Source: Thermoleophilia bacterium
Lineage (GTDB): Bacteria > Actinomycetota > Thermoleophilia > Miltoncostaeales > Miltoncostaeaceae
Reading direction: 5' to 3'
Length of the DNA stretch: 64,000 bases
Assembly (NCBI GenBank): GCA_017882545.1
Contig: JADGPG010000075.1
Coordinates: forward strand, 62,001-126,000
How positions within the stretch are numbered: position 1 is the stretch's first letter; the number at the start of each line of letters is the position of its first letter. The notes beneath the pieces were generated by a model that searched no databases, had not been told where the DNA came from, and saw nothing but the letters and a program-made list of their open reading frames with translations. This document shows, one piece after another, positions 1,267 to 5,822 of the stretch. Made by a program: the position numbers and the translations under genes.

Positions 1267-2220
1267 CTACTTGCGCTTCTTTGGCTGACGTCGCTGCTTG
1301 TTCGCCTGACCGCCGGACCCACTGCGTGGGCGAGGTTTGCGTCGGTTCTGGTTCTGGGGGGTTGCCTTGGGCGGCGGCGACTCGGCGGTGTCGGTTGCCA
1401 CCTCCGGGGTGCCGTTGGACTCCGCCAGGTCGGTCGGCTCGGCGCCATTGACGTCCGAGGCGTCCGCGGGTGCCTCAAGCTCCGACGCCGTGTCGGCTGT
1501 CGGCGCGGTCCGGGAACCTCGCGACCGCGAGGGACGGTCCTGCTCCTGAAGGTGCAGACCGATCGCGTGCTTGATGATCAGCATCTGGCCCGCCGTCCAC
1601 ATGTTGGTGGTGACCCAGTAGATCGCCAGACCGGCCGGGAACGGGAACTGAAACGCGAACAGCACGATCGGGATCGGGATAAGTCGCATGATCCGGCGCT
1701 GCATGTCCGGCGTTTGCGGCTCAAACGAGAGCTCGGTCGACAGCAGCTGCGAGCCGCCGTAGATGATGGCGAGGATGACCGCCGACTGGAGCGGCAGATC
1801 GCTCACGTGCTTGGTGATGTTCGGAATGATGTGCAGGAACGACAGGTCGGAGTTCGTTCCGGCCGAGTTCGCGAAGCGCTTGAGTCCGTAGTACAGACCC
1901 AGGAACACCGGGATCTGGGCGACGAGCGGCAGGCATGACGCGAACGGGTTCGCGTTGTTCTCCTGGTAGAGCCGCATGAGCTCTTCCTGCTGCTTCTTCT
2001 TGTCGCCCTTGTGCTTGCGCTGCATTTCCTTGATCTGCGGCGCGAGCACCTGCATCTGACGCATCGAGCGGTACTGTCGGACCACCAGCGGCAGCAGGGC
2101 GGCCCGGACGATCAGTGTCAGGACGAGGATGGACCACCCGTAACTGAGATGCAGGTCGTAGTGCAGCCGATCCAGGATCCAGATGACTGCGGTTTCAAGA
2201 GGGTTCAGAGGATTAATCAT
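1267..2220 (-). CDS. yidC: Membrane protein insertase YidC/Oxa1
   Basis: 317 residues. YidC inserts proteins into the inner membrane alone or with SecYEG. The short Gram-positive type is seen: a first transmembrane segment containing the conserved cavity arginine (SILVLTLIVRAALLP, R39), a basic cytoplasmic hairpin (MQRKHKGDKKKQQEELMRLY) and further membrane segments including PIPIVLFAFQFPFPAGLAIYW. The C-terminal 90 residues are low complexity and end very basic, which suits ribosome or nucleic-acid contact. I chose the ATG at 2220 because it overlaps the yidD stop as ATGA; the frame is open upstream but not YidC-like there. Confidence 0.94.
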   Translation of the reverse strand: MINPLNPLETAVIWILDRLHYDLHLSYGWSILVLTLIVRAALLPLVVRQYRSMRQMQVLAPQIKEMQRKHKGDKKKQQEELMRLYQENNANPFASCLPLVAQIPVFLGLYYGLKRFANSAGTNSDLSFLHIIPNITKHVSDLPLQSAVILAIIYGGSQLLSTELSFEPQTPDMQRRIMRLIPIPIVLFAFQFPFPAGLAIYWVTTNMWTAGQMLIIKHAIGLHLQEQDRPSRSRGSRTAPTADTASELEAPADASDVNGAEPTDLAESNGTPEVATDTAESPPPKATPQNQNRRKPRPRSGSGGQANKQRRQPKKRK

Positions 2221-2474
2221 CGATGCGCCCTGAAGATACGCTGCTCGGACGGATAGTCCACGCCCCCTGCGCTCCAGGGGTTGCAACGCAACAACCGCCA
2301 TCCGGCGAGCACGACGCCGCGACCCACCCCGAACTCACGCACGGCGCGGACCGCGTACTCCGAGCACGTCGGGTAGTACTTGCAGCGTCGGCCAAGCATC
2401 GGCGAAACCACGCGCTGGTACGCGCGGATCGGCGCGATCGCGATGCGCTGAGCTGACAGGTCCGAGGTCTTCAT
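2217..2474 (-). CDS. yidD: Membrane protein insertion efficiency factor YidD
   Basis: 85 residues, the usual size of the family (about 70-100). The conserved cysteine-rich core is present: YQRVVSPMLGRRCKYYPTCSEY, abbreviated here as RRCKYYPTCSEY, then GVVLAGWRLLRCNPW and the closing GGVDYP. YidD is a small membrane-associated helper of YidC. ATGA overlaps link it to rnpA upstream and yidC downstream. Confidence 0.95.
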   Translation of the reverse strand: MKTSDLSAQRIAIAPIRAYQRVVSPMLGRRCKYYPTCSEYAVRAVREFGVGRGVVLAGWRLLRCNPWSAGGVDYPSEQRIFRAHR

Positions 2475-2884
2475 GCCGCGTCGGACCGGTCTGAGTCACC
2501 GAGTGAGGACTGGATCGCGCGCTCGAGCAACTCCCCAAGGCGCTCGCCGATCGCCGACGAGCCGTGCTCCTCCAGATACTCGGCACTCCCTGGGCGGGCG
2601 ATCACGACAATGTCGAGATGGCCGGGAACATCTCCGGACCGGTGGGAGAACTCTTCCCGCAACACGCGCTTGACGCGGTTACGGGTCACGGCGTCGCCGA
2701 CCTTCTTCGACACCGACAGCCCAAGCCGTGGAGTGCGCATGTCGCCGAATTCGTCACGTGGAAACGCGTAGACGACAAGGTGACGACCGGCCGCCGACTT
2801 GCCCCGCCGATAGACGGCGTCGAAGTCGCGGGATCGGCTGATGCGTCCCCGACGGCCGGGTGCCGGTCGTTCGGACAACGACAT
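2471..2884 (-). CDS. rnpA: Ribonuclease P protein component
   Basis: 137-residue basic protein that forms RNase P with the RNA subunit and matures tRNA 5' ends. SRDFDAVYRRGKS is near the N-terminus and the family signature with RNRVKRVLREEF lies near residues 68-79; LGLSVSKKVG precedes it. The C-terminus is about 15 residues longer than typical and acidic. It begins 11 bp after the rpmH stop and overlaps the yidD ATG as ATGA. The RNA partner (rnpB) is not in this window. Confidence 0.95.
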   Translation of the reverse strand: MSLSERPAPGRRGRISRSRDFDAVYRRGKSAAGRHLVVYAFPRDEFGDMRTPRLGLSVSKKVGDAVTRNRVKRVLREEFSHRSGDVPGHLDIVVIARPGSAEYLEEHGSSAIGERLGELLERAIQSSLGDSDRSDAA

Positions 2885-2895
2885 GGTGACGAGAG

Positions 2896-3030
2896 TCAGG
2901 CCGAAAGCCGGGCGCGGCCCTTCGCGCGCCGGCGCTTCAAGATGGCACGGCCCGCCCGCGAGCTCATGCGCTTACGAAAACCATGCGTCTTCTTACGCTT
3001 GCGTTTATTGGGCTGGTATGTGCGCTTCAC
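2896..3030 (-). CDS. rpmH: 50S ribosomal protein L34
   Basis: 44 residues read from a GTG at 3030: [20 protein letters not shown] begins after the start, then [18 protein letters not shown] and a short RLSA end. This is the complete L34 sequence pattern. AAGGAG lies about 10 nt upstream of the GTG. It is the first gene of the leftward rpmH-rnpA-yidD-yidC-jag-rsmG-parA group. A reverse-strand TATCAT at 3112-3107 may be its -10 box, without a convincing -35. Confidence 0.96.
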
Positions 3031-3362
3031 GAGGCGCTCGCTCCTTGACCTCAGCTTGGGCCGTCCAAGGGCGGCCCTCAGCGCGTCCCGGTTTCACGGG
3101 TCCGGAATGATAACAGGCGGCACCCGCCGGGGGGGCCGGAGATCTTTTCCCCATGTGGGGATAGACCTGTGGAGAACCCAAAAACCCTGGGTGTTACAGG
3201 CGTCTCACATGGAATGGTTGTTGATGGGTTACCGTCCCGCAACGGTTTTTGCCGCTTGCACCCACCGAACGTTTTCCACAGGGTCGTCCAGCACTTCCTA
3301 TCTTCGCACGGCCCGGATTAGAGTCATTCGCGGCGGTCGGACCGCCAAGCGCGCACCTCGGG
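3031..3362. other. Divergent rpmH/dnaA-side intergenic region with DnaA-box-like sites
   Basis: 332 bp between the leftward rpmH and the rightward HATPase-dnaA pair. It holds DnaA-box-like 9-mers: TTTTCCACA at 3272-3280 (one mismatch to TTATCCACA), TTCTCCACA on the reverse strand at 3168-3176, and a weaker ATCCCCACA at 3154-3162. TAGAGT at 3319-3324 could be a -10 for the plus-strand genes, and TATCAT at 3112-3107 a -10 for rpmH. A TTG-initiated frame enters at 3249 but would run through a DnaA box. Confidence 0.6.
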
Positions 3363-4085
3363 ATGACCACACTTTCGCTCTCACATACGCCTGCGTCCAC
3401 GACGCCCGCACGCTGCGCTCGCATCGCTGTGTACCTGGAACCGTCGGCGCCGCCGACGGTGTCCGAGATCGCCGGGGACGATCTGGGGATGTTGATCGAG
3501 CGAATCTTCGAGGCCGTGGCACGTTGGGCCAAGTTGCCGATCATCGCGATCCGCGAGGTGATCGAGAACCTGGTCCACGCCGACTTTCGTGATGCACTCG
3601 TCAGCGTGCTGGCGGGCGGCCACGTGATTCGCGTCTCCGATTCGGGCCCCGGCATCACCGATCCCGAGCGGGCGATGCAGCCGGGCTTCACGACGGCGTC
3701 CGCCCATGAGCGAACGGTAATCCGCGGGGTCGGCAGCGGTCTACCGCTGGCCGCGACAGTCATGGACGCCGAGGGCGGCACGATTGAGTTCGCAGAAAAT
3801 CTCGGTGGCGGGACCGTCGTGACCCTCTCCACTCCCGCGTCCGTAATCGACGACGACTCCGAGACGTCGGTGATGCCAGGTGCGGACGACCGGCTGATCA
3901 TGGCGCTGTTGCTCGAGATGGGCCCGTCAACCCCCGAGCGCCTCGCGTCCGAGCTGGCATGGACGATCGGCCGTTGCGGGCGGGAACTCGTGGTGCTCGA
4001 GAGCCGGGGACTGGTCTCCCGCGATCTCGACGGGCGTCGGACACTTACCCCGAGCGGCTCGCGACTGCTCTCGACCCTCTTCTAG
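3363..4085 (+). CDS. HATPase_c (GHKL-type) ATP-binding protein with C-terminal winged-helix-like domain, coupled to dnaA
   Basis: 240 residues from the ATG at 3363; GTG at 3433 and TTG at 3249 are alternatives, and none has a clear Shine-Dalgarno. Residues 20-155 look like a Bergerat ATPase: N-box REVIENLVHADF with N69, G1 box DSGPGI at 93-98, and G2 box GVGSGLPLA at 122-130. There is no dimerisation/phosphoacceptor histidine domain or membrane segment. Residues 172-240 resemble a MarR/ArsR-type helix-turn-helix with a wing (VLESRGLVSRDLDGRRTLTPSG). It ends 5 bp before the dnaA start, so both are probably co-transcribed. An anti-sigma or SpoIIAB-like kinase, or an ATP-gated regulator of dnaA/oriC, are possible roles; none is proven. 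Confidence 0.75.
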   Translation: MTTLSLSHTPASTTPARCARIAVYLEPSAPPTVSEIAGDDLGMLIERIFEAVARWAKLPIIAIREVIENLVHADFRDALVSVLAGGHVIRVSDSGPGITDPERAMQPGFTTASAHERTVIRGVGSGLPLAATVMDAEGGTIEFAENLGGGTVVTLSTPASVIDDDSETSVMPGADDRLIMALLLEMGPSTPERLASELAWTIGRCGRELVVLESRGLVSRDLDGRRTLTPSGSRLLSTLF

Positions 4086-5488: not shown

Positions 5489-5822
5489 CCGCCCCGCGGA
5501 TGCAACTCCGGGCATATCAAGCCCCAGAGTTGCCTGGGGACATCACCGGGACATCCCGCCGACAACGTGCCCACAACCGAGGCGCCTGTCCACAGATTCA
5601 CCCGCGGCGGACACCACGCCGGGCCATACCGGGAAACTGGGGATGGTGTGACGCCGGCCTCCACACCGCAGAACACTGTCACACCGGTGTCCCAATGCGG
5701 GTTCTCGCCTCTCCGTCCCCATATCCACAGCGCCTACGACTACCACGAAAATCTATTTCAAGTCTTTCTAGAAACAGTCGTGCAGTCGGCAAACGCCGGC
5801 GCCGGACGGTAGGGTCGACCCC
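5489..5822. other. oriC: Probable replication origin (oriC) between dnaA and dnaN
   Basis: 334 bp without a gene. DnaA-box-like 9-mers: ATATCCACA at 5721-5729 and CTGTCCACA at 5586-5594, plus a weaker TGCCCACAA at 5568-5576. The AT-rich tract around 5740-5776 (from TACCACGAAAATCTATTTCA to TCTAGAAACAG) is the most AT-rich stretch nearby and could be the unwinding element. The dnaA-dnaN spacer is the usual origin location in Actinomycetota. Gene orientation also diverges around this region, leftward before rpmH and rightward from dnaA. Boxes are fewer than in Streptomyces. Confidence 0.75.
5810..5815 (+). promoter_or_regulatory. Candidate -10 box (TAGGGT) giving a leaderless dnaN transcript
   Basis: TAGGGT ends 7 nt before the dnaN ATG at 5823, the spacing that places transcription start at or next to the start codon. 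No Shine-Dalgarno is seen before this ATG. No strong -35 is visible. The same arrangement recurs at 43453 in this window. Confidence 0.45.

Follow-up and report, generated by a model that had tools for sequence, protein, structure and literature searches.

A GHKL ATPase-winged helix protein encoded next to dnaA in Actinomycetota and Bacillota

The dnaA locus

In the window (the whole 64-kb stretch of DNA analysed) a 240-residue open-reading frame, which we refer to as X, lies on the same strand as dnaA and ends 5 bp before its GTG start codon, in agreement with the original prediction made from the letters of the window (Table 1). The genes rpmH, rnpA, yidD, yidC, jag and rsmG, assigned by sequence, lie 5′ of X on the opposite strand, with the rpmH start at position 3030 (− strand), whilst dnaN, recF, gyrB and gyrA lie 3′ of dnaA. 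As the gap between them is tiny, X and dnaA are presumably cotranscribed. A search of the rpmH-X region for a sigma-70 consensus promoter returned none. The origin of replication more likely lies in the gap between dnaA and dnaN, because the minimum of the cumulative GC skew of the 134.7-kb contig (window position 5768), DnaA boxes and an AT-rich stretch are all found there.

Table 1 Features of the X-dnaA locus, in window positions.
Feature	Position	Strand	Basis
rpmH-X gap, presumed X-dnaA operon promoter	3031..3362	.	between rpmH start and X
Degenerate DnaA-box triad TTTTCCCCA / CTATCCCCA / TTCTCCACA	3145..3176	.	consensus matching, relatives
DnaA-box-like site TTTTCCACA, 8/9	3272..3280	+	
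X, GHKL ATPase-winged helix protein, 240 aa	3363..4085	+	ORF from ATG 3363 to TAG 4085; HATPase_c 1.9e-10; 172-member family
GHKL (Bergerat) domain, residues 17-156	3411..3830	+	AlphaFold pLDDT mostly >90; residue conservation
ATP-site codons of X	E65 3555-3557; N69 3567-3569; D93 3639-3641	+	
G2 box of X, G122-V-G-S-G126	3726-3740	+	
C-terminal winged helix of X, residues 174-239	3882..4079	+	AlphaFold; wHTH Pfam matches of relatives
Recognition helix 202-214 with R207; wing with R226	R207 3981-3983; R226 4038-4040	+	
dnaA	4091..5488	+	GTG start; Bac_DnaA 2.8e-72, Bac_DnaA_C 1.8e-30, DnaA_N 5.3e-12
Likely oriC, dnaA-dnaN gap	5489..5822	.	DnaA boxes 5586, 5721; AT-rich stretch 5744; GC-skew minimum

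DnaA-box-like sites had also been noted near the start of X, and these proved real and conserved: 8/9 matches to the box stand at 3168-3176 (−) and 3272-3280 (+), with only nine such sites in the whole 64 kb, 7/9 matches stand at 3145 (+) and 3156 (−), and the core TCCACAGG of the box at 3272 is retained by all seven of the closest loci in an alignment. In relatives the triad takes the form TTNTCCACA-nn-TGTGGA...TGTGGATAA with a fixed spacing of 11 and 23 bp; among Actinomycetota, 109 of the 140 loci and 23 of the 26 families show the 23-bp spacing (0 in shuffled sequence), and many Bacillota loci have the triad too. The sites are nevertheless a general feature of the DNA upstream of dnaA, as two loci without X (L163 and L164) carry the triad, which rules it out as a signature of X. 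The triad therefore belongs to dnaA control in general, and the boxes do not show where X binds. Footprinting upstream of X yielded no operator for it; the conserved words were DnaA boxes or AT-rich, and some occurred also where X is absent. In the family of the window (f1), loci L014-L032 share a conserved TTTTTCCCGC ~120 bp before X, between the DnaA boxes of the rpmH-X gap. It was rejected as an X operator, being found once before dnaA in the X-less locus L168 as well.

Spread, linkage and inheritance of the family

A single-sequence scan of genome contigs recovered one true relative only, and the breadth of the family comes from genome-wide searches of two phyla, Actinomycetota and Bacillota, in which many of the genomes were MAGs. 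In the window's class, full-length X was found in 65 of 299 genomes, all in families f1, f2 and f4, and across its phylum the X profile matched 160 of 397 genomes (E ≤ 1e-12). Leaving out two weak single matches (f36 and f40), the loci from both searches place full-length relatives in 26 GTDB families of Actinomycetota, some of which look like Coriobacteriia and Rubrobacteria. Full-length X was also present in 30 of 300 sampled genomes of Bacillota (the phylum of the Lachnospiraceae MAG L003), and in the class of one X-bearing Bacillota genome it reached 15 of 17. X is a dnaA-linked GHKL-winged helix family spanning two phyla, not a novelty of the window organism.

The DNA surrounding 172 members was taken and both X and dnaA were located by profile. 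dnaA lay directly 3′ of X and on the same strand in 159/159 testable loci, at a median gap of 21 bp, the contigs of the remaining 13 loci ending 2 to 458 bases beyond X. The association with dnaA proposed from the window alone holds in both phyla, and homologues are not scattered. Among the Actinomycetota and Bacillota genomes searched, we saw no full-length X at a site other than dnaA and no genome with a second full-length copy, whilst a search for plasmid-borne copies gave partial GHKL matches only, none covering 80%. X could in principle be unrelated to initiation in function, staying by dnaA through the stable gene order of the origin region, and the rpmH-dnaA-dnaN-recF neighbourhood is itself conserved. 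We regard this as highly improbable, as X adjoins dnaA even in f2, whose upstream DNA showed no rpmH-yidC block, no full-length X occurs off dnaA in two phyla, and whole families without X keep the neighbourhood. Since its relatives in two phyla adjoin dnaA in every testable case, X is likely to have an old and so far undescribed part in replication initiation, as a partner or a regulator.

In one locus (L101 of genome G302, family f16, positions 1751-3115) DnaA is interrupted near residue 164 and its two pieces lie in separate open stretches, owing to a frameshift, a sequencing error or a genuine split of the gene.

Ten f1 genomes had no X, nine of these had no dnaA domain match and one had a dnaA fragment only, so the missing X reflects an assembly gap. 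In 13 genomes of f3, f5, f6, f7, f8, f9 and f11, from the window's class, dnaA occurs with no X-like gene before it, and the same is true of 24 genomes from across the phylum, the usual X-less order being rpmH then dnaA. Loss of X does happen, as the X-bearing family f26 includes a member without it (L202). In trees built from 119 loci, families formed clades in 14 of 15 cases for X and 15 of 15 for DnaA, and X and DnaA distances were correlated (r = 0.58, a value reached by 0 of 999 Mantel permutations). The simplest reading of these sequence comparisons would be vertical inheritance with losses, and presence in both phyla suggests an origin before Actinomycetota and Bacillota split; transfer between the phyla is also conceivable.

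Domains of X and their known relatives

HATPase_c (PF02518) matched residues 62-159 of X in Pfam (41.6 bits against a cut-off of 26.4, E = 1.9e-10) and was matched by 53 of 53 aligned family members. The motifs read earlier from the translation (the N69 N-box, D93-SGPGI and G122-VGSGLPLA) were all located as stated, and N69, H72, D93, G95, G97, G122, G126, G139 and G150 are invariant in 172/172 X sequences, with the putative general base E65 kept in 171. The E-x3-N arrangement of E65 and N69 supplies the general base and the Mg ligand in GyrB, MutL, Hsp90, SpoIIAB and PDK. The AlphaFold model of the window protein (mean pLDDT 89.6) consists of the GHKL domain at residues 17-156, a flexible linker and a winged helix at 174-239, and a model of a Bacillota relative has the same two domains; the ATP-binding fold, previously called from motifs, is confidently predicted. 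With N, G1 and G2 boxes intact and a predicted Bergerat fold, X is a member of the GHKL ATPase superfamily with a complete ATP site.

The family profile, compared with solved structures, matched histidine kinase catalytic domains first (3d36, 2.4e-8), followed by MutL, PDK-type kinases, CheA and SpoIIAB (1til and 1l0o, ~2e-4), the SpoIIAB alignment spanning nearly the whole domain. X shares intact N, G1 and G2 boxes with the histidine kinase CA domain (PF02518), but is not a sensor histidine kinase, as it has no DHp/HisKA, phosphoacceptor His or sensor and carries a winged helix instead. The original prediction was right that sensor, membrane part and phosphohistidine are absent: there is no transmembrane segment, the sole invariant His of the family is H72 inside the N-box, and neither a HisKA match in Pfam nor a conserved His N-terminal to the GHKL domain was found.

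An alternative is that X is a SpoIIAB/RsbW-type (HATPase_c_2) Ser/Thr kinase or anti-factor, or a CapK-like kinase, fused to a DNA-binding domain and phosphorylating, for example, DnaA. SpoIIAB and RsbW are likewise soluble GHKL proteins, the N-box of SpoIIAB is E-x3-N as in X, its structures align over nearly the whole domain, and the best NCBIfam match of X is TIGR01925 (anti-sigma F). That match is far under its cut-off, though (26.4 against 135 bits), and HATPase_c_2 (PF13581) scored 18 bits against 27.4 on the window protein, which together rule out membership of the anti-sigma F/RsbW family itself. Histidine kinase catalytic domains also match better, X differs from SpoIIAB and RsbW in carrying a winged helix, and its neighbours included no STAS or anti-sigma-antagonist gene, dnaA being the constant one. 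The CapK+CapS system, where a GHKL kinase controls a winged helix repressor (PMC13373217), resembles X in coupling GHKL ATPase/kinase chemistry to a winged helix DNA-binding regulator, yet it is split over two proteins, has STAS domains and lies by immune operons, whereas X is one chain without STAS at dnaA. On this balance we consider the kinase or anti-factor alternative distinctly unlikely. A link to defence was also rejected, as the window protein had no PADLOC match and the PADLOC matches of a relative lie in its winged helix part.

The C-terminal HTH of the original prediction is borne out as a winged helix by the AlphaFold model and by the Pfam matches of relatives. This part of the model has pLDDT mostly >90, with helices at 174-186, 191-198 and 202-214 and strands at 218-220 and 226-228, and the fold includes both a recognition helix and a wing. 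The window protein alone scored under the Pfam cut-offs for winged helix families, but relatives L243 and L061 exceeded those of HTH_20, HTH_IclR or TrmB, and 41 of 53 members had a winged helix family match at E ≤ 0.01. R207 in the recognition helix is kept in 164 of 172 sequences and R226 in the wing in 160, a conservation that would be expected of DNA-contact positions. Outside the window clade a recognition helix of the type S-T-[AST]-Y-R-[DE]-L, often S-T-A-Y-R-[DE]-L, is common to many families in both phyla, and hints at one DNA target across these families. The helices of the window clade (f1) and of f2 depart from this common type, and may therefore recognise a different target.

The top Foldseek match of both models was DIP2311 (3lmm) of Corynebacterium diphtheriae (E = 8e-7 and 4e-7), the only solved structure among the top matches covering the whole length and, like X, a combination of GHKL and winged helix. 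It is about twice as long, shares 13-17% identity, and aligned with a TM-score to the query of 0.41-0.49 and an rmsd of 13-16 Å, so the domains of X are arranged differently. We take DIP2311 to be of the AlbA_2/GHKL/wHTH type (COG2865), and know of no link between it and dnaA. AlbA_2 and HATPase_c_4 were both absent from the Pfam families matched by the 53 X members at E ≤ 0.01, which rules X out as a COG2865-like AlbA_2/HATPase_c_4 regulator. Among openly searchable papers and family libraries we found no description of the X gene or family. The parts of X are known, and their combination is known from DIP2311, but the strictly dnaA-linked family appears to be undescribed.

A candidate regulator of the dnaA operon

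The reading we favour, at a probability of roughly one half, is that X binds DNA under the control of ATP and regulates the dnaA operon, of which its own gene is part. The original prediction pointed the same way, to an ATP-dependent DNA-binding switch that would tie initiation to energy or phosphorylation state; its domain reading and its coupling to dnaA are strongly supported. The GHKL domain of X, histidine-kinase-like without the phosphoacceptor half, would bind ATP and, with E65 as general base, probably hydrolyse it. The nucleotide state may then alter how the C-terminal winged helices pair or are oriented, and with this DNA binding in or near the rpmH-X region, through which X would most likely autoregulate the X-dnaA operon and thereby initiation. 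This regulator reading draws on the exceptionless dnaA linkage, kept in f2 without rpmH upstream, the single copy per genome, the concordant X and DnaA trees, the invariant ATP site, the conserved R207 and R226, the common recognition helix, and the agreement of AlphaFold and Foldseek for the window protein and the Bacillota relative. Against it stand the missing operator and the diverged recognition helix of f1 and f2, and a GHKL protein may instead be a kinase or work through contacts with other proteins.

X could act by protein contact, modulating DnaA or the initiation complex in a role comparable to that of YabA. In this view the winged helix would serve only to position X close to the origin, and Bacillota members may be brought to the membrane by a short amphipathic stretch at the N-terminus. 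YabA, a negative regulator of DnaA in Bacillota, is unrelated to X in sequence and has neither an ATPase nor a winged helix, but is a possible functional counterpart. We compared 60 genomes of the phylum of the Bacillota relative (G658-G693 and the 30 X-bearing genomes), where YabA exceeded its cut-off in 0 of the 30 X-bearing genomes but in 16 of the 30 X-less ones (Fisher p = 1.9e-6), a statistic which ignores phylogeny, so that the contrast may merely separate clades. The exclusion fits functional replacement; YabA has been reported to co-evolve with the polC of Firmicutes (PMC3814617), and a clade effect is therefore quite possible. As to the membrane, 23 of 30 Bacillota X members have an N-terminal pattern like MxGVFSRLFRK, which by its sequence resembles a membrane-targeting amphipathic helix, but the window protein lacks this pattern, which has a pLDDT <50 in AlphaFold. 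The strict linkage to dnaA would suit protein contact too, whereas conservation of R207 and R226 points to contact with DNA, and we regard action by protein contact as rather unlikely.

Detailed knowledge of how initiation is timed comes from only a handful of model species, and to our knowledge B. subtilis and the other model species presumably do not have X. The regulator reading may tentatively be extended to a wider proposal, less secure than the regulator reading itself: X could be an undescribed ancestral regulator of initiation in Gram-positive bacteria. As a GHKL ATPase switch it would sense adenine-nucleotide state (or phosphorylate a partner) and influence either the expression of dnaA or the origin, and it would have been kept by deep-branching Actinomycetota and Bacillota while other controls, for example YabA, replaced it in model lineages. 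Its exceptionless adjacency to dnaA over two phyla, together with the intact ATP site and the DNA-binding domain, makes X a strong candidate for an overlooked level of initiation control.

The ends and linkers of X vary between families. In their first ~15 residues, Bacillota members (L240, L241, L243, L220, L223, L248 and others) carry a short hydrophobic-basic segment, for example MSGVFSRLFRRD or MFGLIAKLFRKSK, and several Actinomycetota families have a different short N-terminal motif (MKDFLRKVLEEK, MESYFQRFIDNL). In f24, f31 and f45 (L116-L121, L130-L136 and L140-L145) the two domains are joined by a long linker rich in Pro, Gln, Gly and Tyr, probably disordered and over 200 residues in some members, and DnaA is also divergent in these three families.
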